IMG/VR virus record: IMGVR_UViG_3300028361_000013
Coordinates: 1-64,000 of that record
Source: a virus
DNA: 64,000 nucleotides
Reading direction: 5' to 3' (one strand)
Below are positions 18,313 to 57,496 of this stretch, piece by piece. Numbering within the stretch: position 1 is the first letter of the stretch; each line of letters begins with the position of its first letter. The notes under the pieces are model-generated. The model did no database searches and had not been told where the DNA came from. It worked only from the letters and a program-made list of their open reading frames with translations. The position numbers and the translations under genes were made by a program.

Positions 18313-18381
18313 AGTGGGAAGAAAGAAGAAAAATACAATTCATAACTGGCAATCCCAGGTAAGTTGAAAAAAGAGTGGTTC

Positions 18382-18861
18382 ATGGATACGACTGATTACA
18401 GCAAGTTCTTAAAAGACATAGAGAACCAAGCTCATCTTGAATATGATGAAAGCCATGGAATTCGCTCAAGAGGGTTTAGCATGAAGTCAAAAAGTTTTGA
18501 TAGATTTAATCTTGGAATGTATGATGTCTTAATTTCAGAAGATGTTAGAGAGATTGTAGAAAGACTTGGAGCTCTTGGTCCAGAAATTGATGGAGAGTTG
18601 ATTAATTTCTTTGAAACTCATTATAAAGGGTGGAGCTTCGTATTGTGCATATTTGATGGAAATGAAGAAATGGACTCACAACCAATAACTTTTGAGTACG
18701 AGCCATTTCACTACAATTGGTTATACTTCCCTACAATGGATTCTCACTCTGGAGGAGCACCAAGTTTCATAAAACAGTTGCGGAAACCCAATCATCGACT
18801 TGTCGTGGTTGGGAGGAAAGCAACTTCCCCTAAGTTAAATTTATTATATGCAAATATATAA
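18382..18861 (+). pseudogene. Unknown gene, 5' part, cut by a hairpin element
   Basis: The frame (ATG 18382, or TTG 18364) encodes ~133 genuine-looking residues to about 18776 (SGGAPSFIK). It then reads into the hairpin element (18777-18824) and an AT palindrome. The following ORF at 18915 appears to be the remaining 3' part in another frame. The insertion looks like a ~130-bp TnpB-dependent mini-element. No domain recognised. Confidence 0.5.
18777..18824 (+). repeat. TnpB-type hairpin, copy b (GGAAA type)
   Basis: An outer stem GTTGC/GCAAC encloses GGAAA, an inner stem CCCAATCATCGAC (18787-18799)/GTCGTGGTTGGG (18802-18813) and AGGAAA. It matches copy d (54375-54421, opposite strand), where the outer stem is GTCTGC/GCAGGC. 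The paired changes argue for a conserved RNA fold such as a guide-RNA scaffold. Confidence 0.65.
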
Positions 18862-18875
18862 AATAAATTTAACTT
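18832..18875. repeat. AT-rich perfect palindrome
   Basis: AAGTTAAATTTATT (18832-18845) is exactly complementary to 18862-18875 across a 16-nt loop. It directly follows hairpin copy b and is probably the terminal part of the same inserted element; it could also work as a bidirectional terminator. Confidence 0.5.
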
Positions 18876-18914
18876 AACTTCTGTTTTTTCTTTTTTTTTA
18901 TTCATCCTATAAAG

Positions 18915-19172
18915 ATGGACCACACGCTTATTTACGAGTATCCTGGACTTGCTGATAGAGTTACAAATAATGTGGAATTCTCGCAAGATGTTCCAGAGAT
19001 TCTTAAAAGAAGAAACTATGTTGCCACAAAGTGGGACAAGTCACTTCCAAACGGAGACATGTACATCAATTTTGAAACTCTTAAAAAACATGCAAAAGAT
19101 AAAACGTTTTGCTATGACGGATTCAAAAGACAACTATCTCACCTAGAAGCAAGAATTTTCGATAAAGTTTAA
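18915..19172 (+). pseudogene. 3' part of the interrupted 18382 gene
   Basis: An 85-residue ORF beginning MDHTLIYEYPGLADRV. The same frame is open upstream (HPIK) back to the inserted element, suggesting that the original gene ran on from 18776. It may still be translated from ATG 18915. Not recognised. Confidence 0.45.
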
Positions 19173-19200
19173 GAACAAATTTCTTATTTTTGCGTATAAC
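19173..19200 (+). promoter_or_regulatory. GAACA/CGTATAAC promoter
   Basis: GAACAAA at 19173 and CGTATAAC at 19193, a 20-bp register. It drives the operon from ATP-grasp through lysS. Confidence 0.7.
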
Positions 19201-19218
19201 TTATAAAATCCTGGACTT

Positions 19219-20085
19219 ATGAAGATATTATTCCCATGTCATGAACTTGACAATAAAAAAGTTGATGACTGTTACATAGAGGAACATCACGCTGCAAAAC
19301 TGCAGGGTCATGATTGTTTTTTGTTTAGTCATGATGAGTTTGTTAGAGGAGAGTTTAAATCTAACATATTTCAAATAGATGATAAAACATCTCTTGTATT
19401 AAGGAGTTGGATGTTAAACCTAACTCAGTACGAAGAGTTATATAAAACTCTTGAAGAACTGGGCTACGTTCTTGTGAATACACCAGAACAATACAAAAAT
19501 TGTCATCACTTCCCAGAGTCTTATGATTATACAAAAGACCACACGTCAAAAGCTATTTTCATTAAAGAGTGGGATGCTGACATTCTTCAAGACATTTCTG
19601 AATTTTTTGGAGATAAAGACTTCTTAATGAAAGATTTTGTTAAGTCTGCAAAAGGAGTCCCAGGCTTGTTCAGAATGAATACTGGAATCAGTGGAGAAGA
19701 CCTCTTCAAGAAAGTAGAGGAGTTTGTTGAACATAGAGGAGAGTTGTTTAGTGAAGGTCTTGTTTTTAAAGAGTTTGTTGACTTGAAAAAATATGGAGAA
19801 AATGTAAATGAATATAGATTATTCTTTTATGACAGACGATTAATCTCAAGTTCTCAAAACTCTAACGTTAAAGTAGAACACAGCACTCCAAATGATGAAA
19901 CAATTGATTTTGTTGAAGAGATAGCTTGCGAAATTGATAGCAACTTCTTCACGATTGACATAGCTGAGATGGAAAACGGCATGTGGATGATTATTGAAAC
20001 TGGAGATGGACAAGTATCTGGACTTTCTCCAGGTCAAAATTGTTTAGAGTATTACGCAGCAATGCAAGGTCAATTAAAAGAATAA
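19219..20085 (+). CDS. ATP-grasp (R2K/DUF4343-type) ligase
   Basis: A 288-residue ATP-grasp protein. Visible landmarks are VLRSWML near the N-terminus, VNTPEQYKNCHHFPESY, LMKDFVKSAKG, LVFKEFVDL, NEYRLFFYDRR and the Mg-binding end FTIDIAEMENGMWMIIETGDGQ. Members of this clade are predicted to form amide bonds on peptides or modified nucleotides, often in conflict systems. The substrate is unknown. It leads a three-gene run ending in lysS. Confidence 0.75.
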   Translation: MKILFPCHELDNKKVDDCYIEEHHAAKLQGHDCFLFSHDEFVRGEFKSNIFQIDDKTSLVLRSWMLNLTQYEELYKTLEELGYVLVNTPEQYKNCHHFPESYDYTKDHTSKAIFIKEWDADILQDISEFFGDKDFLMKDFVKSAKGVPGLFRMNTGISGEDLFKKVEEFVEHRGELFSEGLVFKEFVDLKKYGENVNEYRLFFYDRRLISSSQNSNVKVEHSTPNDETIDFVEEIACEIDSNFFTIDIAEMENGMWMIIETGDGQVSGLSPGQNCLEYYAAMQGQLKE

Positions 20086-20088
20086 GTT

Positions 20089-20283
20089 ATGAATGTAATT
20101 ATGGACGAAACTATTAATTCAAGAAAGTTATTGAAGCCTGAGATGCGATTGCCATATCAGACTGTAAAATTTGTATACCAAGCACTTGATGTTGCTGAAG
20201 AGCAAATTGAAGAGCAGTTTGAAGAGATTAAAAAACTTAAACTTGAAAACCTTAGATTGTCAAATCTAAATAAAAAAGATTAA
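20089..20283 (+). CDS. Unknown small helical protein, 64 aa
   Basis: Fills the gap between the ATP-grasp and lysS genes with spacings of three and one bases. The C-terminal half is a coiled coil (EEQIEEQFEEIKKLKLENL). Not recognised. Confidence 0.55.
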   Translation: MNVIMDETINSRKLLKPEMRLPYQTVKFVYQALDVAEEQIEEQFEEIKKLKLENLRLSNLNKKD

Positions 20284-20284
20284 A

Positions 20285-21856
20285 ATGCGTAAATTATCAG
20301 AACAAGAAATAGTAAGACGAGAGCATCTTCAAGCGATGATTGACCTGGGTATTAATCCTTATCCAGCTGAGCCGTTTATCAATGATGTTGAGAATGGAGC
20401 TCGTATAAGATATGATTGTACAAGTGTTTGGGAAATGTTTGATACGCTTCAACATTTTTCGACAGAACTTCAAATTGAGCACATGGGAAGGACTGTTAAG
20501 TTGTCTGGAAGGCTAATGAGTAAGAACATAATGGGAAAAGCATCTTTCTTTAAATTACAAGATGATTCAGAAAGAAGAATGCAAGTGTTCATCTCAAGAG
20601 ACGAGCTTTGTCCAGACGAAGACAAAACAATGTACAATACAGTTTTTAAGAAACTGGTTGACCTTGGTGACTTTGTTGGTGTTGAAGGTAAAATGTTTGT
20701 CACTCAAACTGGTGAACTAACTATTCGTGCAACAAAGTTTACAATACTTTCTAAGTCTTTAAAACCTCTTCCTACTGTTAAGAAAGATGAGGAAGGAAAT
20801 GTTCACGATTCTTTTGAGAACCAAGAGATGAAGTATCGTCAAAGATATGTTGACCTTGTGGTAAACCCAGATTCAAAAAAAGTATTTAGAGATAGAACAC
20901 GAATAATTCGAACAATACGTGAAGTATTGGATGAAGAATTTTTCATGGAAGTTGAGACTCCAGTTTTACAGCCAATTCATGGTGGTGCAACCGCAAAGCC
21001 TTTTATGACACATCACAATAAATTGGACATTCCTCTTTATTTGAGAATTGCCAATGAGCTATATCTTAAGAGGTTGATTGTTGGAGGATTCGAAAGAGTG
21101 TATGAATTTGCTAAAGATTTCAGAAACGAAGGAATGAGCAGGTTCCATAATCCAGAGTTTACTCAAGTTGAGTTGTACGCAGCCAATAGAGATTATATGT
21201 GGATGATGGACTTTTGTGAGCAGATTGTAAAAAAAGCAGCATTCTCAATTGTTGATGATGTTGAAGCTGTGTTCGGAGAGAATAAAATTAGCTTCTTTGG
21301 AGAATTCGAAAAAATAAAGTTCTTTGATGCGATTGAAAGATATTCTGGATGTCAAGCAATGAGCATGACAGATAATGAGCTTAGAGTATTTCTTGCTGGT
21401 CATGAAATCCATGTTGATAACTCTATGGGTAGAGCGAAGCTTCTTGATGAAATTTTCGGAGAGTTTGTTGAGCCTAAATTGATTCAACCAACGTTTGTAT
21501 ACGATTATCCAGTTGAGATGTCTCCGCTTGCTAAAAAGCATAGAACAGACGCTGGCATAGTTGAAAGATTTGAACTTGTAATCAATGGTAAAGAAGTTGC
21601 TAATGCTTATAGTGAGCTTAATGACCCAATTGACCAGAGAGAAAGGTTTGAAGAGCAACTTCGTCTTGCTGGAGCAGGTGATGATGAAGCTATGGGTATG
21701 GATGAAGATTTCTTGAGAGCATTGGAATATGGGATGCCTCCTACTGCAGGTCTTGGTATTGGAATTGATAGATTGGTAATGATTTTAACTGAACAAAAAT
21801 CAATTCAAGATGTGTTATTTTTCCCTCAAATGAGACCAGAGAATATAAATTATTAA
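20285..21856 (+). CDS. lysS: Lysyl-tRNA synthetase, class II
   Basis: A 523-residue, full-length class II lysyl-tRNA synthetase. It has an N-terminal OB-fold anticodon domain (~55-160) followed by the catalytic domain: motif 2 FRNEGMSRFHNPEFTQVE and motif 3 GLGIGIDRLVM near the end. All core motifs look intact, so it should charge tRNA-Lys. Whole aminoacyl-tRNA synthetases are found in some very large phages. A likely purpose is to keep translation going or to replace a host enzyme under attack (inference). Confidence 0.95.
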   Translation: MRKLSEQEIVRREHLQAMIDLGINPYPAEPFINDVENGARIRYDCTSVWEMFDTLQHFSTELQIEHMGRTVKLSGRLMSKNIMGKASFFKLQDDSERRMQVFISRDELCPDEDKTMYNTVFKKLVDLGDFVGVEGKMFVTQTGELTIRATKFTILSKSLKPLPTVKKDEEGNVHDSFENQEMKYRQRYVDLVVNPDSKKVFRDRTRIIRTIREVLDEEFFMEVETPVLQPIHGGATAKPFMTHHNKLDIPLYLRIANELYLKRLIVGGFERVYEFAKDFRNEGMSRFHNPEFTQVELYAANRDYMWMMDFCEQIVKKAAFSIVDDVEAVFGENKISFFGEFEKIKFFDAIERYSGCQAMSMTDNELRVFLAGHEIHVDNSMGRAKLLDEIFGEFVEPKLIQPTFVYDYPVEMSPLAKKHRTDAGIVERFELVINGKEVANAYSELNDPIDQRERFEEQLRLAGAGDDEAMGMDEDFLRALEYGMPPTAGLGIGIDRLVMILTEQKSIQDVLFFPQMRPENINY

Positions 21857-22179: not shown

Positions 22180-23742
22180 ATGAAAAAATTAAAACAAACT
22201 GAAGGAACAATAGAGTTTATAAGAAACGGTCATGCTTACTTAATATTAGAAGGCAATGATGATTTGTTCATTCACAAAAAAAATACAGGCCAAGCTCTTC
22301 ATGGAGATAAGGTCACAGTGTCAATTGTTAAAGACGAAAGCGGAAAAGGTACTGGAGAACAAGGTATAGTAGAAAGAGTTGAAGATAGAAGCAAAACTGA
22401 ATTCTCTGGTGTAATTGACATCAATGAAGAAAAGGGATTTGCTTTTGTTAGAACTTCTGGAGGTAAGATGCCAGTAGATTTCTATGTTCCAATGGAGCAC
22501 CTAAATGGCGCTAAGGATGGAGAGGTTGTGGTTGTTAAATTGCACCGATGGCACAAGAAGGACAAAAGCCCAAAAGGTATTGTCACAAAAGTGATTGGCG
22601 CAGCTGAAACTCACGAGACTGAAATGAACAGCATTATGTTTAAGCATAATATTGATTATGATTTCTCTGATGCAGTTATGAAAGAAGCTGAAGACATTCC
22701 AGTTGAGATTTCTGAAAAGGAGATTCTTAAGCGTAGAGATATGCGTGGAGATTTGACAATCACCATTGACCCAGACAGTGCAAAAGATTTTGATGATGCA
22801 ATATCATTCAAGAAATTGGATAATGGGAATTACGAGATTGGAGTTCACATTGCTGATGTAACACATTATGTTAGACCAGGAAGTGAATTGGATAAGGAAG
22901 CATTTAGAAGAGCGACTTCAGTTTATCTTGTTGATAGATGTATTCCAATGCTCCCAGAGAGGCTTTCTAATGGAATCTGTAGCTTACGACCAAATGAAGA
23001 AAAACTGACATTCTCGGTTATCTTTCAGATGTCTCCAGATGGAGAAGTTGTTAAGCACAATTTCAAGAAGACTGTAATCAACTCTGATTGTAGATTGACG
23101 TATGAAGAAGCGCAAGAGATTATAGAAGGAACTGCCGACAGAATAGAAAGCGTTCCACCAGGGATGGGAGTATTCGATTGTGTGAAAATATTGAATGGCA
23201 TTGCAAAGAAAGTTAGAAAGAAAAGATTTAAAGATGGAGCGGTCACCTTCAACAGAAGAGAGCCAAACTTTGTTCTTGATGAGGACAATGTTCCAATAGA
23301 TGTTTTCTTTCATGAATCTGCAGATGCTCATCAACTTATTGAAGAGTACATGTTATTGGCTAACAAGTATGTTGCAACTTATGCACACGGACTTACCAAG
23401 CCATTCGTATATAGAACACACGACCTTCCAAGTGAAGAGAAACTGCATGAGTTAAGTTTATTCGTATCTCAGTTCGGTTATCACTTTAATACTTCAGGAA
23501 GCATGGAAGCTACCAAAGCATCTCTCAACGAGATGTTGAAGAAAGCGTCTGGAAGTGGTGAGGAAGCAATGATTTCAACGTTAGCTATTCGCTCAATGTC
23601 GAAAGCAGTTTATTCAACTCAAATAATTGGTCACTATGGACTCGGATTCAAGCACTATAGTCACTTTACATCACCAATAAGAAGATACAGCGATATTTTG
23701 AGTCATAGATTATTGTGGTATTATATGAATGGCGGACAATAG
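22180..23742 (+). CDS. rnr: RNase R, cold-shock and catalytic (RNB) part
   Basis: 520 residues covering two N-terminal cold-shock-like domains and the RNB exonuclease domain. The active-site motif DPDSAKDFDDA is at ~198-208, and the domain closes with HFTSPIRRYSDILSHRLL. Normal RNase R continues with a helix and an S1 RNA-binding domain; here a stop follows YYMNGGQ. The missing part is found at 30933-31310, beyond a 7.2-kb cassette array. RNase R degrades RNA 3'-5'. The two pieces may assemble, as in other phage split enzymes (inference). Confidence 0.9.
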   Translation: MKKLKQTEGTIEFIRNGHAYLILEGNDDLFIHKKNTGQALHGDKVTVSIVKDESGKGTGEQGIVERVEDRSKTEFSGVIDINEEKGFAFVRTSGGKMPVDFYVPMEHLNGAKDGEVVVVKLHRWHKKDKSPKGIVTKVIGAAETHETEMNSIMFKHNIDYDFSDAVMKEAEDIPVEISEKEILKRRDMRGDLTITIDPDSAKDFDDAISFKKLDNGNYEIGVHIADVTHYVRPGSELDKEAFRRATSVYLVDRCIPMLPERLSNGICSLRPNEEKLTFSVIFQMSPDGEVVKHNFKKTVINSDCRLTYEEAQEIIEGTADRIESVPPGMGVFDCVKILNGIAKKVRKKRFKDGAVTFNRREPNFVLDEDNVPIDVFFHESADAHQLIEEYMLLANKYVATYAHGLTKPFVYRTHDLPSEEKLHELSLFVSQFGYHFNTSGSMEATKASLNEMLKKASGSGEEAMISTLAIRSMSKAVYSTQIIGHYGLGFKHYSHFTSPIRRYSDILSHRLLWYYMNGGQ

Positions 23743-23842
23743 CTTATTTATTTTTTTAGATATACTTTCATCATATTTTATGATAATTAACTTAATGTTA
23801 CTTTACGCACAAAAATTAATTAGAATCATAAAACTTTAAAAT

Positions 23843-24073
23843 ATGGAAAAAGATAATTTGAAAAACGAAACTGAGCCATTTAATAAACCCTTTGTTAGCG
23901 GTAGTGGTTTATTAAAGCCTAAAAGTGGAACTGGATGGTATATGTTTGTATCAACAATATTGGCAGGTGGTGTAATGTTTTGTATAGGACAAATGTTCGG
24001 AACAGATGGTGCTATTATAACAGGAATACTATTGTTGATAGCAATGGCATCTGCTGTTAGATACAACGTCTGA
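23843..24073 (+). CDS. Cassette 1 protein, two membrane helices
   Basis: A 76-residue protein with two hydrophobic segments (~32-51 and ~54-70). The right core GTTAGCGGT (23894-23902) lies inside the ORF, with GTT as codon 18. Residues 1-17 therefore come from the flank and the rest from cassette 1. Function unknown. The array junction with rnr lies upstream; no clear left core is seen there. Confidence 0.55.
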   Translation: MEKDNLKNETEPFNKPFVSGSGLLKPKSGTGWYMFVSTILAGGVMFCIGQMFGTDGAIITGILLLIAMASAVRYNV

Positions 24074-24078
24074 CCATT

Positions 24079-24149
24079 ACCGCTAACGGCTATTGTATGG
24101 TGTCGGAATTTGTTTTTACAAATTATGCATTATACAAATTGTTACCCTT
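24079..24149 (+). repeat. attC-like site 1
   Basis: Left core ACCGCTAAC (24079) is complementary to the start of cassette 1 (23894). Right core GTTACCCTT is at 24141. The inner arms TTGTAT (24093) and ATACAA (24132) pair, with a ~30-nt loop. Confidence 0.8.
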
Positions 24150-24181
24150 AGTACGGGTTGATTAAAAACGAAATTTGAATA

Positions 24182-24679
24182 ATGAATACAGATAAAAAAA
24201 TATTAGATGCTTGTTGCGGAAGTAGAATGTTCTGGTTTGACAAAACAAACCCTAATGTTTTATTTGCTGACATAAGAACGGAAACCGTAGAAGTAAAAGA
24301 TAGTAGCGTAAATACTGGAATTAGAACAATAGAGGTTAAACCTGATATTGAGGTTGATTTTAGAGATATGCCATTTAAAGACAATACTTTCAAAATGGTA
24401 GTATTTGACCCACCACACTTAAATAAGTTAGGAAAAGACAGTTGGATGGCTAAAAAGTATGGTGTTTTATTACCTACTTGGGAATTAGATATAAAAACTG
24501 GATTTAATGAATGTATGCGAGTTTTAGAGCCTTATGGGACTTTAATATTCAAATGGAACGAAACCCAAATTACAGTTACTCAAATATTAAATGCCATTGG
24601 CCATCAACCATTATTTGGACACAAATCAGGTAAACGCTCAAATACGCATTGGATGTCTTTTATGAAAACAGATGTCTAG
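24182..24679 (+). CDS. Cassette 2: SAM-dependent methyltransferase
   Basis: A 165-residue Rossmann-type methyltransferase. DACCGSRMFW (~9-18) is the SAM-binding motif I and VFDPPHL (~75) the catalytic DPP motif, followed by the amphipathic WELDIKTGFNECMRVL and FKWNETQI. The DPPH tetrad suggests an amino-methyltransferase acting on DNA or a small substrate. It is a compact, complete single-domain protein that ends just before attC-like site 2. Confidence 0.75.
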   Translation: MNTDKKILDACCGSRMFWFDKTNPNVLFADIRTETVEVKDSSVNTGIRTIEVKPDIEVDFRDMPFKDNTFKMVVFDPPHLNKLGKDSWMAKKYGVLLPTWELDIKTGFNECMRVLEPYGTLIFKWNETQITVTQILNAIGHQPLFGHKSGKRSNTHWMSFMKTDV

Positions 24680-24683
24680 TATT

Positions 24684-24752
24684 AAGGGTAACGGCAAATT
24701 GTATGTTATCGGTTTGCTTTTCGCAAACTGAAATATACAAAATGTTATCGGC
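24684..24752 (+). repeat. attC-like site 2
   Basis: Left core AAGGGTAAC (24684) is the exact complement of the cassette 2 start at 24141. Right core GTTATCGGC is at 24744. The arms TTGTAT/ATACAA and GGTTTGC/GCAAACT fold into a hairpin with a four-base loop. Confidence 0.85.
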
Positions 24753-24906
24753 TGATGCGGATTATCTATCTTAATTTCAATACGAAGCACTAAATAAGTT
24801 TTTATTTTTTAGGGTCGGAAGAAAAATAATTGAAAAAGATTTGGTTTATACGAAACTTTATCGTAAGTTTGTCGTATGATTAACTATAACACTAAAACAA
24901 AATAAG

Positions 24907-25224
24907 ATGAATTTACTACAAGAACTGGCAACGATAAATACTGAAAGTAAAATAGACTTGACTGGATTATCATTAGATGAATTGAACAAAGTAATTGCTG
25001 ATGCAAATAGACTTATTCGTGAACAAGAATATCAAATTAAATTGGAACGGAAAGAAAAATCAAAAACCGATTTGAAAGTAGGAGACATAGTTTCCGTTGC
25101 TAGTGATAAATTTAAAGGTGAAATTTGGGAAGTTTTAAAACTAAATCCAAAGAAAGTTAAATGTAAAAGAGAAAATGGAGAGGTTTGGAACATTGCATAC
25201 TCATCAATTAAAATGATTGATTAA
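24907..25224 (+). CDS. Cassette 3: unknown protein with KOW-like segment
   Basis: A 105-residue protein: an N-terminal helical half (coiled, residues 20-55) and a C-terminal basic beta region with LKVGDIVSVASDKFKGEIWEV that resembles a KOW/SH3-like RNA-binding motif. It overlaps the next small gene by one base. Function unknown. Confidence 0.6.
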   Translation: MNLLQELATINTESKIDLTGLSLDELNKVIADANRLIREQEYQIKLERKEKSKTDLKVGDIVSVASDKFKGEIWEVLKLNPKKVKCKRENGEVWNIAYSSIKMID

Positions 25225-25397
25225 TGGTAAGAATAGAAATACATTTAGATAGAGATGAAACTGATATTCTTGATGCTATTGCTAAAGAAGATGGTAGAAG
25301 TCGTAAAAACTTATGTGAAACTGAAATACGTAAGTTAATCAAAGAGCGTGGGCAAAAAATAAAAACTTCTAACGTAAATATTGATACGAAGAAGTAA
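25224..25397 (+). CDS. Cassette 3: ribbon-helix-helix-like protein
   Basis: A 57-residue ORF (ATG overlapping the previous TAA) reading VRIEIHLDRDETDIL ... DGRSRKNLCETEIRKLI, which fits a ribbon-helix-helix fold. It is a possible regulator of its cassette or partner of the upstream protein. Together they make cassette 3 the only clear two-gene cassette before its left core. Confidence 0.6.
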   Translation: MVRIEIHLDRDETDILDAIAKEDGRSRKNLCETEIRKLIKERGQKIKTSNVNIDTKK

Positions 25398-25490
25398 TGT
25401 AGCATTTGCCGATAACGTGTTGAATATGGTGTGTAACGACAAAAACAGCACAAAACTTTTAATAATTAATAAACTTTAAAAACAGAACAG

Positions 25491-25748
25491 ATGAAAAATT
25501 TAAGAACGAAATTAAGTTATACGCTATATTTTGTGTTAGTTGCTGTGCTTTCTTCTTGTGGAGATGAAACCAAAGAAAATATTGAGCAAGAAAAAGATAA
25601 CAGAGAAATGTACATAAGCAACCCTAAATGGAAGGCAGACTTACAAATAGTAAAAGTTAGAAATTGCGAATATGTTTTGTGGTATAACGGTTACGGAAGC
25701 GATATGGAACACTACGAAGGTTGCAAAAACCCACAGCATTGCAACTAA
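25491..25748 (+). CDS. Cassette lipoprotein between attC arms
   Basis: An 85-residue protein with a lipoprotein signal (YTLYFVLVAVL, lipobox SSC, Cys23) and a mature Cys-containing domain. It lies between the two halves of attC-like site 3, with its final codons inside the right arm. Function unknown. Confidence 0.6.
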   Translation: MKNLRTKLSYTLYFVLVAVLSSCGDETKENIEQEKDNREMYISNPKWKADLQIVKVRNCEYVLWYNGYGSDMEHYEGCKNPQHCN

Positions 25749-25753
25749 CACTT

Positions 25754-25762
25754 GTTATATGC
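25754..25762 (+). repeat. Cassette 4 right core
   Basis: GTTATATGC, followed by TGTGCGGATTTTAA. The GCGGATTTTAA-like stretch after the core recurs behind several cassette starts. Confidence 0.7.
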
Positions 25763-25876
25763 TGTGCGGATTTTAACCACAAATGCTGATACGAAGAACG
25801 AAGCCTTTTTGTTTTATTTTTGTGGGTGGAATATTAAAAAGTGATTATTTATATATAGATTAAACTATTTATTATT

Positions 25877-26440
25877 ATGGAATTAAGAAAATTTATAGCA
25901 ACGACTATACGTGAATATTTGAATGAAGCATATATTGACCAAGATGGCAATTTAAAGGATATGAATTATGAACCAAGTTCAGATGATTTATGGGATGATA
26001 AAGAGTTTTTAACATTTGTTAATAAAAACATAGAAAATGGTAGTGAGATGCCTGAGAAAATGTATAAAGAAATATCTGATAATCATAAGAAACTTTATAG
26101 AAAAGAATTATTAGACTATGGTGGTCAGATAATAGCACATAGTGAAAACGAACTATTAGTAAAAGATTTAGTTAGATATGATTACAGTAGATTAGAAAAA
26201 GAAATATTAGATTGGGTTGAAATGTATTCAACATTTGGAAATGTCCATTTTCCTTTTGATGAATTATTTATAGAAAATGTAGATGAAATATTCCAAGGTA
26301 GAATTATTAACAAATTAATAGACGTGATGGATTGGGATATTGATTTACCAAATTCAATATTTTATAAATTTCATCCAAGAGTTAGGAAAATGATTGAAGA
26401 TAATAATTTTAAACCATTTAATATGGATTTAGAATTATAA
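25877..26440 (+). CDS. Cassette 4: unknown acidic protein, 187 aa
   Basis: The largest cassette protein of unknown function after the methyltransferases. It begins LRKFIATTIREYLNE, an opening I have seen on other phage proteins. Mostly helical and acidic, with no Cys and no membrane segment. A TTATTTATATA sequence lies upstream (~25847). Confidence 0.6.
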   Translation: MELRKFIATTIREYLNEAYIDQDGNLKDMNYEPSSDDLWDDKEFLTFVNKNIENGSEMPEKMYKEISDNHKKLYRKELLDYGGQIIAHSENELLVKDLVRYDYSRLEKEILDWVEMYSTFGNVHFPFDELFIENVDEIFQGRIINKLIDVMDWDIDLPNSIFYKFHPRVRKMIEDNNFKPFNMDLEL

Positions 26441-26503
26441 GTTCGGTGGAAAAACAAAGGGAATGTTATGATGAAACTTAATACGAAGTGATAACGTAGC
26501 ATT

Positions 26504-26706
26504 GCATATAACGCTAGGGGTATGGAGCGGATTTTTTACGGATTTGAAACACTAAACTTTATTGTATGACAACTGAAAGAATAAAAGAGATACAGGCTGA
26601 AACAGCTTATCCCAATAGTACAAGCGTACAACAAGCACTGTTGAAGGTGTGGAATGAATGTGACCAGGAGCGAGTAAAAAACTGCTCCATACCTGATGTT
26701 AGCATT
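26504..26706 (+). repeat. attC-like site 4 (long)
   Basis: Left core GCATATAAC (26504) is the exact complement of the cassette 4 start (25754). Right core GTTAGCATT is at 26698. The arm CTAGGGGTATGGAGCGG (26514) pairs with CTGCTCCATACCTGATG (26682). The ~150-nt loop holds the 5' part of the ORF starting at 26566. Confidence 0.7.
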
Positions 26707-26814
26707 TCGTTATTTTGCCGATGCTCACAGGCTAAAGGTAGAGATAATGATGAAAATGGTACGCCTTACTGTATTGAATGCCAAAAACCAATAGATGAAA
26801 GGCAAATACTATGA
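26566..26814 (+). CDS. Cassette 4/5 read-through protein, Zn-binding tail
   Basis: An 82-residue ORF. The first 44 residues are coded in the loop of attC-like site 4; GTT of the right core is codon 45 (Val). The cassette 5 part has CRC and CIEC pairs spaced like a zinc ribbon. Recombination at this core would swap the zinc-binding tail in frame. Whether the fusion is natural or accidental is unknown. Confidence 0.55.
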   Translation: MTTERIKEIQAETAYPNSTSVQQALLKVWNECDQERVKNCSIPDVSISLFCRCSQAKGRDNDENGTPYCIECQKPIDERQIL

Positions 26815-27022
26815 ATGCTAACGTTAAATCTATGGGTATTTTTTGCCCGACTTAAATAACTAAAAATTAATCATGAATATATCAGAAAAAGTAATTGACA
26901 TAGTAAAAGGAATGGAGGGTATCGGAGGAACACCAACAGACCAAGAGTTCTTAAACGAATTTGAATTTCGCTTACAAGCACTAAAGCTAGGGCAGACATT
27001 ACCTATAGATAGTGTTACCAAA
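26814..27022 (+). repeat. attC-like site 5 (long)
   Basis: Left core AATGCTAAC (26814) is the exact complement of the cassette 5 start (26698). Right core GTTACCAAA is at 27014. The arm from 26823 (AAATCTATGGGTATTTTTTG) pairs with 26990-27013 (CATTACCTATAGATAG). The loop holds the 5' end of the next ORF. Confidence 0.7.
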
Positions 27023-27163
27023 CGTTATTTATTCTGGTTTGAATCAGAAGGGAAAGACGGATGGACGTTTGAAATAGAGGCAGAAGATAGTAATGATGCT
27101 TATGATAAAGCGTATGACACACACGGGCCACAAGTTGCAGGAATGATGTACCAAGTTATTTAA
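26873..27163 (+). CDS. Cassette 5/6 read-through protein, 96 aa
   Basis: GTT of the right core is codon 48 (Val). The first 47 residues come from the loop of attC-like site 5, the rest from cassette 6. No family recognised; the C-terminal half is beta-rich (LFWFESEGKDGWTFEIEAED). The four bases after the core (CAAA) continue into a CGTTATTTATT stretch that marks other cassette starts. Confidence 0.55.
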   Translation: MNISEKVIDIVKGMEGIGGTPTDQEFLNEFEFRLQALKLGQTLPIDSVTKRYLFWFESEGKDGWTFEIEAEDSNDAYDKAYDTHGPQVAGMMYQVI

Positions 27164-27165
27164 TG

Positions 27166-27298
27166 TTTGGTAACGGTTTGTGTATGCTTTGTTGCGTATA
27201 GGTATCAATAAACTTTAAATAAGAACAGAACTGAATAAATATTAACAAGCCTTTAGATAGGCGGTATGTAGCAATAAAATATACACGTTGTTATATGC
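27166..27298 (+). repeat. attC-like site 6
   Basis: Left core TTTGGTAAC (27166) is the exact complement of the cassette 6 start (27014). Right core GTTATATGC is at 27290. GTGTATGCTTTGTTGC (27181) pairs with GCAATAAAATATACAC (27271), with a ~75-nt loop that holds a small CCTTTAGATAGG hairpin. Confidence 0.8.
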
Positions 27299-27314
27299 TT
27301 TTAAAATTACGATT

Positions 27315-27563
27315 ATGTACTCACAAAAATTAATTAAAGAAGTAAAAGAATGTTTCCCTGATTATGCAAAAATGCACGAATTAGCGGACGAAGGTAGTGT
27401 TTGGCTTGGAAGATATTTAGATGACAGTAGTGGTGGAAGTGTGTCATTAGATGCTATATTAACAGCTACCAACCTTGAAGAAATCCAAGACAAAGCACGG
27501 TTAATAAAGCGAAAAGTTAATTGTTATAAACTATGGTGTGATGAAGACCCAAGACGTAAGTAA
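27315..27563 (+). CDS. Cassette 7: unknown protein, 82 aa
   Basis: Start ATG 27315 is preferred; an upstream in-frame start at 27288 would lie inside the recombination core. A soluble, helical protein with LADEGSVWLGRYLDD in the middle. Not recognised. Confidence 0.6.
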   Translation: MYSQKLIKEVKECFPDYAKMHELADEGSVWLGRYLDDSSGGSVSLDAILTATNLEEIQDKARLIKRKVNCYKLWCDEDPRRK

Positions 27564-27571
27564 TTTTTATT

Positions 27572-27631
27572 GCATATAATGTCTAGGCTATGAGCCTGTA
27601 CTTGTATGGCTTTATAGCCTTTGTTGTAGGT
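27572..27631 (+). repeat. attC-like site 7
   Basis: Left core GCATATAAT (27572) matches the complement of the cassette 7 start except for the last base. Right core GTTGTAGGT is at 27623. AGGCTATGAGCC (27585) pairs with GGCTTTATAGCCT (27608). Confidence 0.75.
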
Positions 27632-27671
27632 AGTAATCCTGCAGAATTGAAACACTAAACTTAAAAATATA

Positions 27672-27854
27672 ATGGAAGATAAATTGAAACAACAGATTGA
27701 AGAATGGCAAACCAAGTGGCAACATTTACAAGGCTTAATTGATGATAAGATAAAAGCCGAAGATTACAACGGTGCTTTTAGGATGCAAACAGTTGCCACA
27801 ACATTAAAAGGATGTATAAGAGATGCTTATGACATTCTTGAACCACAAGAGTAG
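27672..27854 (+). CDS. Cassette 8: unknown coiled protein, 60 aa
   Basis: A short helical protein rich in Gln, Lys and Trp (EEWQTKWQHLQGL). The second half resembles a UvrB/UvrC-type helix pair (KAEDYNGAFRMQTVATTLK). Not otherwise recognised. One gene in one compact cassette. Confidence 0.6.
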   Translation: MEDKLKQQIEEWQTKWQHLQGLIDDKIKAEDYNGAFRMQTVATTLKGCIRDAYDILEPQE

Positions 27855-27864
27855 TAAATTTATT

Positions 27865-27933
27865 ACCTACAACGGCATCTTGTATGGTGTCGTAGTGAGG
27901 CACGAGCTATGCACTATACAAAGTGTTGTAGTG
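27865..27933 (+). repeat. attC-like site 8 (most canonical)
   Basis: Left core ACCTACAAC (27865) is the exact complement of the cassette 8 start. Right core GTTGTAGTG is at 27925. Arms CTTGTATGGTG and GCACTATACAAAG pair with one unpaired base, just as in integron attC folds. Total 69 nt. Confidence 0.88.
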
Positions 27934-27966
27934 AGTGCGGATTATTAACTTAAATGTATAATTGAA

Positions 27967-28158
27967 ATGAAAAATACAGATTTAGAATTACCCGAAAATA
28001 TGACAAGGGTGTTGGTTGAACATATTAGTGGAGTACTTGAATTTGCCTATTACAAAGATGGAATGTTCAAAGCAGACATGGAAAGCGATTGGGTTCAACC
28101 AAAATCAATTAAAAGCTGGATGTCAATATCTGAACTTAAATCAAAGGTAGGATTGTAG
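27967..28158 (+). CDS. Cassette 9: unknown protein, 63 aa
   Basis: A small soluble protein with a beta-rich centre (RVLVEHISGVLEFAYYKDG) and WVQPKSIKSWM. Not recognised. It ends five bases before the next left core. Confidence 0.6.
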   Translation: MKNTDLELPENMTRVLVEHISGVLEFAYYKDGMFKADMESDWVQPKSIKSWMSISELKSKVGL

Positions 28159-28162
28159 CATT

Positions 28163-28362
28163 CACTACAACTGATTTGTGTATGAATAGTAGCGATTAAT
28201 AACAACTAAATTTTATAAAAATGAACGAAACAAATAACCAACTTATCCAAACAGGATTTACACTTGATAGGTTGCACCAAGATAACAAAATAAGCGATGA
28301 AGCTTACGTAATCTTAAAAGACAGAAATAAGCAAGCTATTATTTATACACGGTGTTGTACGG
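28163..28362 (+). repeat. attC-like site 9 (long)
   Basis: Left core CACTACAAC (28163) is the exact complement of the cassette 9 start (27925). Right core GTTGTACGG is at 28354. GTGTATGAATAGTAGC (28178) pairs with GCTATTATTTATACAC (28335). The loop holds the 5' part of the next ORF. Confidence 0.75.
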
Positions 28363-28445
28363 AGTTGGTTTGTGATAGTTGCGAAAACACTGCTGTATAT
28401 GTGGAAAGAAAATGTAATGAATGTGCTTATGCAGATACGCAGTAG
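28221..28445 (+). CDS. Cassette 9/10 read-through protein, Zn-binding tail
   Basis: A 74-residue ORF. The first ~44 residues lie in the attC loop (MNETNNQLIQTGFTLDRLHQ); the tail from cassette 10 has CDSC and CNEC pairs like a small zinc finger. Unlike the other read-through ORFs, the core GTT is not in the codon phase here. A TTG at 28366 could start the tail alone. Confidence 0.5.
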   Translation: MNETNNQLIQTGFTLDRLHQDNKISDEAYVILKDRNKQAIIYTRCCTELVCDSCENTAVYVERKCNECAYADTQ

Positions 28446-28458
28446 GTAAAAACCAATT

Positions 28459-28516
28459 ACTTACAACGCCTAGTGTAAACGGTCGTTTTAATGCCGTTTT
28501 ACACATTGTTAGGTTT
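28459..28516 (+). repeat. attC-like site 10
   Basis: Left core ACTTACAAC (28459) differs at two positions from the complement of the cassette 10 start. Right core GTTAGGTTT is at 28508. GTGTAAACGGTC and GCCGTTTTACAC form a strong hairpin. Confidence 0.8.
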
Positions 28517-28544
28517 TAGTATGAACGGATTTTAAAGAATAAAT

Positions 28545-29144
28545 ATGAATAAATACAATATAATATATGCAGACCCAGCTTGGGAGCAAAAAGCAGGGAG
28601 ACCATTAAGCGGTGGTTACAAAAAAGAAAATGGGGTACAAGTGTTTAATCCAAAAAGCGATAAGTCTGCAGACTTGCCTTATAACACAATGAAATTTGAA
28701 GACATAGTAAACCTGCCTATTAAAAACTTGACTGCTGATAATTGTCATTTGTATTTGTGGGTTACAAATAAGTATTTAATGAAAGCGGAAGAAGTTGTAA
28801 AGGCTTGGGGTTTTAAATACTCTACAACCCTTGTATGGTGTAAAAAACCAATAGGTAGCGGAATGGGTGGAACTTTTAAAGTGTCTACTGAATACTTAAT
28901 TTTTGCAACCAAAGGCAAGGTTAATGAATTGGTAAATGAAAAAATAAACGGAACTTGGTTTGAAGAAAAAAGACAATATGTAAACGGCTACCCTTGCCAT
29001 TCAAAAAAACCAGACTTCTTTTATGAACTTATTGAAAAAGTATCTAAAGGAAATAAATTAGAATTGTTCTCCAGAAATATTAGACAAGGATGGGATGCTT
29101 GGGGAAATGAGATTGAAGGTAGCATTAAACTTAGTGAATATTAA
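28545..29144 (+). CDS. Cassette 11: MT-A70 family adenine methyltransferase
   Basis: A 199-residue MT-A70-type N6-adenine methyltransferase. IIYADPAWE (~5-13) carries the catalytic DPxW-type motif, followed by LYLWVTNKYL, TTLVWCKKP, STEYLIFATKG, KPDFFYELIEKVS and the SAM-binding LELFSRNIRQGWDAWGNE. It probably methylates adenine in DNA, which could protect phage DNA from host restriction. It is the largest single cassette gene, and its stop overlaps the next left core. Confidence 0.88.
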   Translation: MNKYNIIYADPAWEQKAGRPLSGGYKKENGVQVFNPKSDKSADLPYNTMKFEDIVNLPIKNLTADNCHLYLWVTNKYLMKAEEVVKAWGFKYSTTLVWCKKPIGSGMGGTFKVSTEYLIFATKGKVNELVNEKINGTWFEEKRQYVNGYPCHSKKPDFFYELIEKVSKGNKLELFSRNIRQGWDAWGNEIEGSIKLSEY

Positions 29145-29277
29145 ACCTAACCGCTTGGGCTATGTGTAGTGCCGACCTTGATAGATTACTATACTAACTT
29201 AAAATACTGAAACAATGGATAAATTAGAAATATTTGATAAAGATGGAAAGGTGTTACATATAGCTGATGTTATAAGT
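29143..29277 (+). repeat. attC-like site 11
   Basis: Left core AAACCTAAC (29143) is the exact complement of the cassette 11 start (28508). Right core GTTATAAGT is at 29269. GGCTATGTGTAGTGCC (29158) pairs partly with GGTGTTACATATAGC (29250). The ORF starting at 29215 enters through the right arm. Confidence 0.7.
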
Positions 29278-29424
29278 CGTTTTTTATCTGACAAAGTAGA
29301 TTATAAAAATGATTCTGACGTAATGATTGGAATGAGAGGTTTGAGTAAAAACATACCTTGTTTGTATTATATAACTCCTATTGATTATGAACCACATAGA
29401 ATTGAAGTTCTAAATGACTTATAA
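29215..29424 (+). CDS. Cassette 11/12 read-through protein, 69 aa
   Basis: GTT of the right core (29269) is codon 19 (Val), so residues 1-18 come from the attC loop and the rest from cassette 12. Small, soluble, unknown. Its stop lies in the next left core. Confidence 0.5.
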   Translation: MDKLEIFDKDGKVLHIADVISRFLSDKVDYKNDSDVMIGMRGLSKNIPCLYYITPIDYEPHRIEVLNDL

Positions 29425-29552
29425 CGCTGAGTATAACCGCAGTAGCGGATTAGAAAGCACAAATGATTGAATTAAACAGAATATTAATTAGAAGCAATGG
29501 TGTTAAAATTAAGCACTACAACCCGCTATTGCTGTTATACATTGTTGTGGTG
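29417..29552 (+). repeat. attC-like site 12
   Basis: Left core ACTTATAAC (29417) is the exact complement of the cassette 12 start. Right core GTTGTGGTG is at 29544. GTATAACCGCAGTAGCGG (29431-29448) pairs with 29523-29540 at 16 of 18 positions, with a ~74-nt loop. Confidence 0.85.
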
Positions 29553-29564
29553 CGTTTTTTAACT

Positions 29565-29771
29565 ATGTATTATCAAGAAAAAGTGATTAACGGAATTTTA
29601 TGTTGCAAGCACTCGCCAAATGGTGAATGGATTGAACTTGCAAAACAGACATTAACTGAACGCCTTATGAAGTATAAAAAGGCTCTTCAAATTATACAAA
29701 ACTTTGATGAAGAAGATGAAGGTAAATATGGCGACCCTGGTGTTGTTGCAGGTGAAGCACTTTCTTTCTAA
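29565..29771 (+). CDS. Cassette 13: unknown protein, 68 aa
   Basis: ATG 29565 lies 13 bases after the core, in the TGCGTTTTTTAACTATG context shared by other cassette starts. The frame is open further upstream (29463), but that part is attC hairpin. It has one Cys pair (LCCKH) and an acidic C-terminal half (DEEDEGKYGDPG). Not recognised. Confidence 0.6.
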   Translation: MYYQEKVINGILCCKHSPNGEWIELAKQTLTERLMKYKKALQIIQNFDEEDEGKYGDPGVVAGEALSF

Positions 29772-29774
29772 ATG

Positions 29775-29899
29775 CACCACAACGTTTTGTATATGAAACG
29801 TTGCCAACCGAAACTTAACAGATAAACAACAAATTTTGAATTATTAATAAACTAAATAAAAGACCACTAAAGCAATGTTTTATATACGTTGTTATGTGG
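29775..29899 (+). repeat. attC-like site 13
   Basis: Left core CACCACAAC (29775) is the exact complement of the cassette 13 start. Right core GTTATGTGG is at 29891. GTATATGAAACGTTGC pairs with GCAATGTTTTATATAC across a ~65-nt loop. Confidence 0.85.
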
Positions 29900-29908
29900 C
29901 GTTAAATT

Positions 29909-30076
29909 ATGGGAAGTAGTATAAGTAGAATTGATGATGAATACGATTGTTACGTATCTTTTTGTGAAAAATTGAATGAAGTTTCAAAAGATTACGAAGA
30001 TATTAAAGAACATACGAAGGAATTAGTTAAAAAACACAAAATCACAAAAAAGATGTGGTGGTATAATGCCACATAA
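29909..30076 (+). CDS. Cassette 14: unknown protein, 55 aa
   Basis: Short ORF beginning ten bases after the right core. A charged helical protein (DYEDIKEHTKELVKKHK) ending MWWYNAT. Its last codons and stop overlap the final left core. Not recognised. Confidence 0.55.
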   Translation: MGSSISRIDDEYDCYVSFCEKLNEVSKDYEDIKEHTKELVKKHKITKKMWWYNAT

Positions 30077-30077
30077 C
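30069..30077 (+). repeat. Terminal left core of the array (site 14, half)
   Basis: CCACATAAC is the exact complement of the cassette 14 start (29891). No convincing partner core follows before the recombinase ORF (30130), so this is the array end; the 52-bp gap may hold an attI-like site. Confidence 0.65.
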
Positions 30078-30129
30078 GACTATATATAAACACCTTTTTA
30101 TAAATCATTGATTATTAAATTGATATAAG

Positions 30130-30933
30130 ATGTTAAATCAAAAAATTGTAAAGATTTGTGAACAAAAGTTTATATATTTAAACTACTCTGAAAGAACCAA
30201 GGACATTTATACCCATTACATCAAGCAATTTATTACTTGGTGCGGTGATAAAAGAATAATTCACCTCAATTCAAAAGATTTTCAGTTATATCTTAATAAT
30301 TATAATTTCACTTCTATATCAAAACAAAATCAAGTTATTAACGCAATTAGATTTCTTTATAAGTTTGGGCTCAATAAAAAGTATGATAAAGTATCTTTTA
30401 AGAGGCCAAAGAAAGAAAAGAAGTTACCAAAAGTTATAGATGGAGAATTGATTAAAGATAAGTTATCAAAGATTGAAAATTTAAAACATAAAGCAATATT
30501 GACTTTAACGTATTCAGTTGGTCTTCGTGTATCAGAAGTTGTTAATTTAAAAATAGAAGATATTGACTCCATCAGAATGTTGATTTATATTAAAAATGCT
30601 AAGGGAAGAAAAGATAGGGTTGTACCATTATCGAACTATGTGCTGCAGTTGTTGAGGTATTATTGGAAAGAATATAGGCCAAAAACTTATTTGTTTAATG
30701 GTCAAAATTATGACCAGTATTCAGTTGGTAGTTGTCAGAAAATATATAAGAAGTATATTGACAACAACTCTTCAATTCACACACTACGCCATTCTTCTTT
30801 CACAAATCTATTGGAAAGCGGCACAGACCTTAGAATTATTCAGAAGATAGCGGGTCACTCATCATCTAAAACCACTGAGATATATACCCATGTCTCAAAT
30901 AAAATGTTAAATAAAGTAAATTTACCTATATAA
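30130..30933 (+). CDS. Short tyrosine recombinase of the cassette array
   Basis: A 267-residue tyrosine recombinase with an N-terminal SAM-like core-binding domain (~1-90) and a catalytic domain. Catalytic residues are R133 (GLRVSEV), K158 (GRKDR), H217 and R220 (HTLRH), H243 (AGHSS) and Y252 (IYTHVS). The catalytic residues are complete, but the extra helix that marks integron IntI between the K and HxxR boxes is absent, so it is closer to XerC/D. It lies downstream of the cassettes, in the same direction. Its TAA overlaps the ATG of the rnr S1 piece (TAATG). Confidence 0.9.
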   Translation: MLNQKIVKICEQKFIYLNYSERTKDIYTHYIKQFITWCGDKRIIHLNSKDFQLYLNNYNFTSISKQNQVINAIRFLYKFGLNKKYDKVSFKRPKKEKKLPKVIDGELIKDKLSKIENLKHKAILTLTYSVGLRVSEVVNLKIEDIDSIRMLIYIKNAKGRKDRVVPLSNYVLQLLRYYWKEYRPKTYLFNGQNYDQYSVGSCQKIYKKYIDNNSSIHTLRHSSFTNLLESGTDLRIIQKIAGHSSSKTTEIYTHVSNKMLNKVNLPI

Positions 30934-31310
30934 TGTATAATAAATCACAATTATCACAAATGTGCGAACATCTAAGTGAACAAGAACAAAAAGCTGCTAA
31001 AGCACAGAGAGAATCCATTAAGTACAAGCAGTGCGAGTTTCTGAAGAGTAAAATTGGAGAGAAATTTAAAGGAATTATTTCCAGTGTAAATTCGTTTGGT
31101 GTTTTTATAGAAATAATAGAAAATGGATGTGATACAATGGTTTCAGAAGATTGGCTAAAATCCAATAATCTATTTGTTGATGAAGAAAACTATTGTATAA
31201 ACGATTTTAATAATGGAGATAGCTATAGGCTTGGAGATGAGGTTTTAATTCAAGTTTCAAGAGTCAATATGACCAGAAAACAAATAGATTCTATTATAAT
31301 TTTAGATTAA
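30933..31310 (+). CDS. rnr: RNase R, C-terminal S1 part
   Basis: 125 residues corresponding to the end of RNase R: EHLSEQEQKAAKAQRESIKYKQ is the helix after the RNB domain, and the S1 fold follows (IGEKFKGIISSVNSFGVFIEI ... YRLGDEVLIQVSRV). It lacks any catalytic residue and starts exactly where the N-terminal part at 23742 stops. Its start codon overlaps the recombinase stop, so translation is probably coupled to the recombinase. Confidence 0.88.
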   Translation: MYNKSQLSQMCEHLSEQEQKAAKAQRESIKYKQCEFLKSKIGEKFKGIISSVNSFGVFIEIIENGCDTMVSEDWLKSNNLFVDEENYCINDFNNGDSYRLGDEVLIQVSRVNMTRKQIDSIIILD

Positions 31311-34024: not shown

Positions 34025-34921
34025 ATGTTTTACACAATTTATGAAATAAAAAATAAGATTAACAACATGGTTTATGTTGGGTATCACAAGACAATAAATA
34101 TTGATGATGGTTATATGGGGTCTGGACTTTATATAAAACGTGTTATTAATAAATATGGTATTGATAATTTTGAAAAAAGGATTTTACATTTTTGTGAAAG
34201 TGAAGATGAAATGAAATTGATGGAATCAAAAATTGTTAATGAAGATTTTATAAAAAGAGATGATACTTATAATTTAAAGTTAGGTGGTCATGGAGGTTTT
34301 AGAAAAGGTTATGTTTCTTTAAATGGAAGGCAAATAAAAAAAGAAGATTTTGATAAAGATGATTCTTTATTTGGAGTTGCAAAAAATAAAATAGCTGTTT
34401 TTGATAAAGATGGAAATACATTTCAAGTCAATAATGATGATGAAAGAATTAAAAATGGACAACTAACAAGGACTTTTGAAAAAAATGGATTAGTTAGTGT
34501 TATTGACAATGTAACTGGAGAGAAAAAAAGAGTTAGTAAAGAAGAATATGCAAATGACGACAATCTAATGTCAGTTAATGTTGGAATTGCTACAGTGAGA
34601 GATAAAAATGGTAATGTTTTAAAAGTTAGAGTAGATGATAAAAGATATGTTTCTGGAGAGTTAGTTGGATATACAAAGGGGGTTAATTTTAATAAAAGTG
34701 AGTATTTTATATATGATAATAATCATGTGAAAAAGTATCACATTTTAAATGAAAATTTTACAGAATTTTGCAAAAAAAATAACTTACCATATGGAGCGTT
34801 TAAGAAGTCATATAGAGAAAAAGGAGAGCCTATTTATAATAATTTAGGGTCAAACAAAAAAAGGTTAGAAAAAAAAGGCTTGTTAAAATATACTGGCTGG
34901 TATTGTAAAAAAACAAAATAA
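34025..34921 (+). CDS. GIY-YIG homing endonuclease splitting the RNA ligase
   Basis: A 298-residue protein with the GIY-YIG core (FYTIYEIKN ... VYVGYHKT), then [11 protein letters not shown], the catalytic Glu region near LMESKIVNE, and GGHGGF. The C-terminal part has three repeats around KKEDFDKDD / SKEEYANDD that probably bind DNA. It stands exactly between the two halves of the RNA ligase with its own TATTTATA element. Confidence 0.85.
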
Positions 34922-56762: not shown

Positions 56763-56978
56763 ATGATAAATTTATTTTACATATTAGGTACTTTATTTTT
56801 CTTATTCGAATTGGGTATTTTACAAAATCCAAAAAAATACTTATATAGACTCAGGCTTCTTGAGGGTTTAAATAAAGAGAGCGAAAACGGTGAAAAGAAA
56901 ATAGAGCTTGAATTTTTAATCTGCAATGTCGGATGTTCAGCCTTACCTATAACGTTAAGGCTAAGGATTGGAATTTGA
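56763..56978 (+). CDS. Cassette-like membrane protein, fused tail
   Basis: One membrane helix near the N-terminus (LFYILGTLFFLFELG) and a charged middle. From ~56930 the frame passes through a CCTATAAC core and an AGCCTTA/TTAAGGCT hairpin, so the last ~15 residues come from the recombination site. Confidence 0.45.
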   Translation: MINLFYILGTLFFLFELGILQNPKKYLYRLRLLEGLNKESENGEKKIELEFLICNVGCSALPITLRLRIGI

Positions 56979-57023
56979 GGAACGAAAATTATAAACTTTA
57001 GGTGGCCGACTGAATTTTCAAAA

Positions 57024-57224
57024 ATGAGATGTTTGATGTGTGATAAAGAAAGAGAAATGACAGAAGAAGAGAGAGTTGATTTTAAAATAGGCACTAAAGA
57101 AAGCTTCTTTGGAAAAACTAAAGTAGTATTGCTGCTAACGGTTTGGCTATGCACCGTAAAGCATAGCACAATGTTTAATCTTAGCACAATACTATATTGC
57201 TTTATGGTGTATAGGTTGTGTTAG
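57024..57224 (+). CDS. Cassette ORF truncated by an attC-like site
   Basis: The first ~36 residues (MRCLMCDKEREMTEEERVDFK...) look like a genuine Zn-motif protein start. After ~57130 the ORF reads through the hairpin of the recombination site, so the natural C-terminus is lost. Confidence 0.4.
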   Translation: MRCLMCDKEREMTEEERVDFKIGTKESFFGKTKVVLLLTVWLCTVKHSTMFNLSTILYCFMVYRLC

Positions 57225-57228: not shown

Positions 57229-57239
57229 TCGTTTTTATT

Positions 57240-57488: not shown

Positions 57489-57496
57489 CCCAAATG

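Follow-up and report, generated by a model that had tools for sequence, protein, structure and literature searches.

A phage-borne gene-cassette array with its own recombinase: very probably an integron-like system in mirror image, with relatives in Bacteroidota chromosomes

The stretch of DNA studied here (hereafter the window) comprises positions 1 to 64,000 of the 168,582-bp IMG/VR virus record IMGVR_UViG_3300028361_000013, and within it the gene for RNase R (rnr) is split by a tandem array of gene cassettes that ends in the gene for a tyrosine recombinase. We conclude that this is very probably a system by which the phage captures cassettes in the manner of an integron, and that it mirrors the classical one in the direction of its genes. 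It is not a canonical integron: the recombinase lacks the additional domain of the integron integrase IntI and falls in a clade of its own, and the layout is mirrored. It also seems likely that the system belongs to a second, independent integron branch whose recombinase has no IntI domain, chromosomal in Bacteroidota and mirror-image (genes inverted with respect to sites) in large phages, where it turns over accessory genes as whole units and where the proteins of some of these genes start with a hairpin-encoded peptide. A preliminary description of the window had proposed an integron-like array with its own recombinase inside a phage rnr, and this reading is supported. The recombinase has 267 aa, and two relatives, L082 and L178 (our locus labels; RNase R about 70% identical), have an uninterrupted rnr. 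The mirrored array, the recombinase without an IntI domain, the occurrence of the family in dozens of large phages and the chromosomal version go beyond that description.

The array proper occupies positions 23743-30077 and consists of 15 tandem cassettes, the last of which abuts an attI-like site followed by the recombinase gene (30130-30933). Fourteen consecutive cassettes over 23743-30932 had been described before; the array and its start stand, while the count is 15 and the array itself ends at 30077. On the plus strand each unit reads hairpin, a core beginning with GTT (R'), an open reading frame (ORF) and a core ending with AAC (R''). R'' is the reverse complement of its own unit's R', perfectly (9/9) in 13 of the 15 units, with one mismatch in one and two in another, which confirms the self-complementary cassette ends described at this place. 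Under a strict criterion (a perfect partner plus an adjacent stem), the array region holds 6 sites and 60 Markov resamples none; the other 6.4-kb blocks of the window hold none either, except for one apparent chance match and a second array at 57 kb. The earlier argument that the ends are not simple repeats therefore holds, as the matched 9-mers are variable and the resamples yielded no strict site.

About 58 viral loci have recombinase, attI and arrays in common. Among the 51 testable ones (at least 1 kb upstream, partner sought 80-1000 bp away), 36 have a perfect 9-mer partner, while among control positions (AAC or TAAC, taken downstream of the recombinase) the share is 1.1-1.5%; this test and the Markov resamples lead us to reject chance and simple repeats. 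Walking along the arrays yields 195 units of uniform cassette polarity: 183 ORFs share the strand of the recombinase and read toward attI, 7 lie on the opposite strand, and the median distance from stop codon to the end of R'' is 13 nt. Since ORFs and recombinase lie on one strand, directed toward and past attI, the arrangement mirrors that of a classical integron in gene direction. The core consensus is GTTA(T/G)NNN; the GTTRRRY-type cores reported previously did not survive, as only 17 of 180 cores fit that pattern.

The sites span 40-190 nt, and hairpin lengths peak near 40, 80 and 118 nt. In 47 sites of the 80-nt class, compensatory double changes are found in 18 of the 25 predicted pairs, and the AAC/GTT cores are invariant in the alignment. 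The core-adjacent pair is G.T in 47/47 sites and one stem pair is G.T in 46/47, which become A.C mismatches on the opposite strand. When 163 sites were folded as single-stranded DNA, their mean z relative to shuffled sequence was about -3.8, so that the comparison with shuffled sequence, named as a check in the preliminary description, comes out far in favour of the hairpins, in folding as in covariation. By folding energy the gene-sense strand has the greater stability in 143 of the 163 and the bottom strand in 3, whereas the same method applied to the attC of the classical dfrA1 cassette gives -36.3 for the bottom and -26.6 for the top strand, as expected for classical sites. In the phages, recombination would presumably act on the gene-sense strand. 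A covariance model trained on 47 phage sites, none of them from the window (its E-values are rough), recovers many of the window sites, and nearly all of its matches in other phages lie upstream of recombinases and score best on the predicted strand. ARAGORN found no tRNA in the hairpin loop of L009.

The recombinase (267 aa, plus strand) contains the domains PF13495 and PF00589. Column conservation points to R133, K161, H217, R220, H243 and Y252, which we take to be the catalytic residues. Its AlphaFold model (pLDDT 85.5) has VchIntIA and XerA as nearest folds. In a profile alignment to VchIntIA, residues 10-176 correspond to 10-179 and residues 209-257 to 260-308, leaving about 33 residues where VchIntIA has 81 in the region of the additional domain. 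Scores against the IntI family TIGR02249 (152.6 bits, cut-off 265) and the XerA-like family NF040815 (169.5 bits) both fall under their cut-offs. In a tree of 57 rows with three sampled IntI and some open forks, IntI1 and two Shewanella IntI form a clade (100/99) without the phage recombinase, the Flavobacterium Xer-type proteins form a separate clade, and the phage enzymes cluster with a few members from bacterial contigs (L084, L086, L121), apart from IntI and Xer. Relatives in IMG/VR number 98 by one peptide scan and 252 by a profile scan, not all of which need belong to the family. In about 85,000 GTDB genomes the best among the matches listed is 55% identical (L084, a 5.8-kb contig of a metagenome-assembled genome with the same attI and sites).

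These properties bear on the strongest alternative, namely that the phage acquired an ordinary bacterial integron of the IntI type, or an integrase-less cassette cluster. Integrons and attC clusters are known from phages (PMC9892861), and both the folds and the protein families indicate kinship with IntI and Xer. We nevertheless regard this as improbable, and reject a classical integron on domain, clade, core and polarity: the 33 residues against 81, the 152.6 bits against 265 and the position outside the IntI clade all speak against it, as do cores that are not GTTRRRY, an attI at the wrong end and a reversed polarity. Moreover, no relative of the recombinase above 38% was found in 50,697 GenBank phage records. 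No IntI above the cut-off was found in the ten genomes reached through the loci.

The attachment site and its surroundings indicate that the cassettes move. With few exceptions, the loci examined have a conserved AAC|TATNATATATA ahead of the recombinase gene, and a variable R'' is joined to it (base frequencies were computed over 58 loci). It adjoins the recombinase gene at the 3' end of the array; in the window, the last R'', CCACATAAC (ending at 30077), directly abuts the attI-like site GACTATATATAAACACC (30078-30094, plus strand), with the predicted crossover at AA|C. Between the near-identical phages L048 and L051, the 2,647 nt that extend rightward from attI are 100% identical, and the cassettes left of TAAC are unrelated; between L061 and L062 it is 100% over 1,225 nt, and again the cassettes differ left of TAAC. 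The same break is seen at lower identity in L009/L012/L022, L046/L047, L007/L070, L010/L005, L014/L039 and L008/L017. The left end of L049 is identical to the last 118 nt of the attI-proximal cassette of L051, and is followed by one extra cassette and then attI; by sequence comparison, a single cassette has been gained exactly between AAC and attI. Cassettes are thus, as far as aligned loci can tell, gained and exchanged at attI. The preliminary description had looked to relatives whose cassettes differ at the exact cores, and these exist for the system, although no relative was found with other cassettes at the same rnr position.

Where otherwise different arrays share a cassette, the shared stretch starts with the hairpin and runs up to the following AACG (L057/L070, 419 nt, 97.9%; L017/L061, 315 nt, 100%). 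The mobile unit would therefore be hairpin plus ORF plus R'', cut at AA|C of R'', whereas gene-sense classical cassettes are cut at G|TT of R'. L012 and L022 share a 960-nt block (99.9%), which in one of them precedes a different hairpin and in the other attI, and this arrangement appears as expected for a copying (replicative) pathway. In coordinates, L022 1-113 and 2634-3593 correspond to L012 583-1542, apparently a cassette copied to the attI-proximal place with its tail left behind. L022 and L023 differ deeper in the array as well.

If the hairpins were instead transcription terminators or intergenic repeats, with the array differences due to homologous recombination and the recombinase an unrelated passenger, their position between genes would be explained, and attC sequences in common might recombine homologously. 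This is very improbable given the variable 9-mers matched across each cassette, the invariant AAC/GTT cores, the differences that break beside attI, no further than 4-6 nt from the core, the gain of a single cassette at attI and the constant linkage to the recombinase. Equally remote is a system of Xer/dif-type modules (like pdif modules), with genes flanked by short double-stranded Xer sites, which the Xer-like length and fold of the recombinase (NF040815, under cut-off) would fit, and which we reject as the sites, 40-190 nt long, form hairpins that covary and have variable cores, in place of a conserved dif of about 28 bp, and cassette polarity is uniform.

Some points weigh against an integron-like cassette-capture system. 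The recombinase lacks the additional domain that is reported necessary for IntI activity and held to be needed for the recombination of hairpins. The closest phage pairs are metagenome assemblies, in which array repeats can cause misassembly, although this is countered by the many independent pairs whose breakpoints fall in the same 4-6 nt. Finally, insertion mediated by the recombinase does not account for the element's left end in rnr, where an AA|C core is absent from the junction and the first hairpin cannot be recognised.

We propose that attC, folded into a hairpin as a single strand, is recombined with the attI next to the recombinase gene, and it is presumably this recombinase that carries out the reaction. 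The cut would fall at AA|C of the R'' core, and new cassettes would therefore enter beside the recombinase. Cassettes could in this way be gained, copied and reordered, supplying small accessory genes to the phage. About a third of the cassette ORFs start within the hairpin, which hence encodes the first protein residues (e.g. ...LNISDV), and with the crossover at AA|C of R'' this fusion of hairpin and ORF would survive cassette movement. Shared N-termini encoded by hairpins, such as FNENSELNISDV, are seen in L034, L031, L039, L012, L024, L042, L061 and others, and in the window at 29215-29277; they may explain a recurrent N-terminal motif in unknown phage proteins. A count of 7-mers upstream of cassette ORFs yielded only AT-rich words, and no common cassette promoter was identified by it.

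Most of 118 cassette proteins are small and of no recognised family. Those that can be assigned are for the most part DNA methyltransferases, besides one PARP-like and one exonuclease-like protein, and the few methyltransferases among the cargo are likely directed against host restriction. Genes on the flanks have matches in phage families (among them clamp loader, thymidylate synthase, RNA ligase/tail-fibre attachment protein, ribonucleotide reductase), from which the carriers appear to be large myovirus-like phages. Their hosts are probably Bacteroidota, judging from the sister recombinase described below and from the Polaribacter phage P12002L. No insertion place is shared by all systems; the right-flank genes form many small clusters, so a single insertion locus is not indicated.

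The phage-trained covariance model also matches chromosomes of Flavobacterium and Saprospiraceae, beside a longer sister recombinase. This enzyme matches IntI profiles only outside positions ~180-238 and is without the IntI domain. About 115 nt past its stop codon lies ...TATAAACAA|GTT (attI), and then the cassettes. In the 24 chromosomal units walked, ORFs follow attI in 21 versus 3, and folding favours the bottom strand in 18 versus 2. The chromosomal version is therefore in classical polarity, and it is in the phages that genes and recombinase are inverted relative to the sites. Such arrays occur in Flavobacterium and other Bacteroidota (L093, L094, L119, L137, L146, L153, L155, L158, and also L102 and L154) and have apparently been overlooked so far. 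A relative of the sister recombinase at E<=1e-50 is present in 51 of 148 sampled genomes of the phylum, a figure that refers to the recombinase and not to arrays.

Unit by unit, with ranges on the plus strand that end at R'', the array in the window begins with unit 1 (23743-24087; ORF 23843-24073), whose left hairpin is unrecognisable and whose cores are GTTAGCGGT (R', 23894) and ACCGCTAAC (R''). Unit 2 (24088-24692, R' 24141) has a hairpin, an ORF at 24182-24679 (methyltransferase-like, weak) and a covariance-model match at 24079-24149, and unit 3 (24693-25416, R' 24744) a hairpin, an ORF at 24907-25224 and a match at 24684-24752 (32.4 bits). The lipoprotein-like ORF of unit 4 (25417-25749, R' 25535) lies at 25491-25748 and starts within the hairpin loop. 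Between units 4 and 5 the hairpin is deleted to 4 nt; unit 5 (25750-26512, R' 25754, ORF 25877-26440) resembles cassettes of L008, L015, L016 and L066 at its head. Units 6 (26513-26822, ORF 26566-26814, R' 26698 perfect) and 7 (26823-27174, R' 27014, ORF 26873-27163) are followed by unit 8 (27175-27580, R' 27290, ORF 27315-27563; match 27166-27298, 38.1 bits), whose R'' ends in AAT and has the single mismatch. Then come units 9 (27581-27873, R' 27623, ORF 27672-27854, match 27572-27631), 10 (27874-28171, R' 27925, ORF 27967-28158, match 27865-27933) and 11 (28172-28467, ORF 28221-28445), the last with two mismatches in its core pair 28354/28467. Unit 12 (28468-29151, R' 28508) carries a 40-nt hairpin and an MT-A70 methyltransferase (28545-29144; Pfam MT-A70, 1.6e-28). 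The ORF of unit 13 (29152-29425, R' 29269; match 29143-29277) is at 29215-29424 and starts within the hairpin loop; unit 14 (29426-29783, R' 29544) has its ORF at 29463-29771 and a match at 29417-29552 (38.4 bits), and the attI-proximal unit 15 (29784-30077, R' 29891) an ORF at 29909-30076 and a match at 29775-29899.

The second array (57131-57975, plus strand) has the perfect core pairs GTTAGCAAA-TTTGCTAAC and GTTATGTGC-GCACATAAC, ORFs at 57240-57488 and 57672-57962, and covariance-model matches of 56.5 and 49.2 bits (within 56900-58400). With no recombinase beside it, this is a cluster of attC sites lacking integron-integrases (CALIN) by definition, which the main array is not. A third, single site lies elsewhere in the virus record (G000 128852-128951, minus strand), and in another phage, L027, a second array is found at 18245-20587, about 8 kb past the recombinase.

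The rnr gene itself is cut into a 5' part (22180-23742, plus strand), which encodes the catalytic part of RNase R (NCBIfam RNase_R 7e-166, profile 64-578 of 711) and terminates at a stop created by the insertion, and a 3' part with the S1 domain (30933-31310, plus strand; RNase_R 5e-30, profile 590-706). These junctions recur unchanged in a second IMG/VR contig (L002/L083, 100% over 13.9 kb). At 30931-30935, TAATG joins the recombinase stop to the overlapping ATG of the 3' fragment; because of this overlap, coupled translation might produce the S1 part, giving a possibly functional split RNase R. The same phage also carries several homing-endonuclease-like genes and a transposase (phrog_506) at 34025-34921, 37510-38490, 49500-50234 and 53139-54290, and a tRNA-His guanylyltransferase-like gene (phrog_4717) at 6064-6990.

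With dozens of systems evidently turning over hairpin cassettes without the IntI additional domain, the necessity of that domain could be put to a direct test. If phages have a cassette platform of their own, large phages would possess a mechanism for rapidly exchanging methyltransferase genes and other small accessory genes, and cassettes would have a way to pass between phages and bacteria. The mirrored arrays uncouple site polarity from gene direction, which are coupled in known integrons, and so allow one to ask why classical arrays are oriented as they are.

We found no description of this family of recombinases and arrays in the literature searched, which left out subscription journals and preprints. 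The earlier suggestion that such an array is undescribed thus stands for this kind within that literature, but not for phage integrons or integrase-less attC clusters as such: complete integrons and attC clusters have been reported in phages, with IntI enzymes or none (Qi 2023, PMC9892861), and one attC of P12002L was recombined by IntI1 (PMC9892861). The P12002L sites match our covariance model on the gene strand, with up to 36 bits, and one has the same GGTCGTTTTAATGCC loop as the hairpin at 28468 in the window; that cluster differs in having no recombinase, and it was recognised in PMC9892861 neither as a separate family nor as mirrored. XerC, XerD and XerA share length, domains and catalytic residues with the phage recombinase, but act on dif. 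IntI of archaea and bacteria is defined by its additional domain (PMC9668308), although in a survey of tyrosine recombinases this insertion was incompletely conserved in an "integron-like" subgroup (PMC8138268). In Bacteroidetes, complete integrons have been reported to be rare (PMC9024848); the chromosomal arrays found here in Bacteroidota have a recombinase of the sister family and attCs recognised by the phage-trained model, and differ from the phage arrays in their classical polarity, with the recombinase pointing to attI. Treponema integrons likewise have recombinase and cassette genes on one strand, with attI upstream of the cassettes (PMC3607928). There, however, the recombinase lies upstream and is transcribed toward attI, and the cassettes follow attI in normal polarity (PMC3607928), whereas in the phage system it lies downstream of the array and is transcribed away from attI. 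With classical integrons (class 1, Vibrio superintegrons) the phage system has in common self-complementary cassette ends, imperfect hairpin attC sites, an attI beside the recombinase, insertion next to attI and mostly one small gene per cassette. It differs from them in a recombinase without the IntI additional domain, in cores of the form GTTA(T/G)NNN, in a mobile unit whose hairpin lies 5' of its gene, and in ORFs and recombinase on one strand, with the ORFs directed toward attI and the sense strand folding better.

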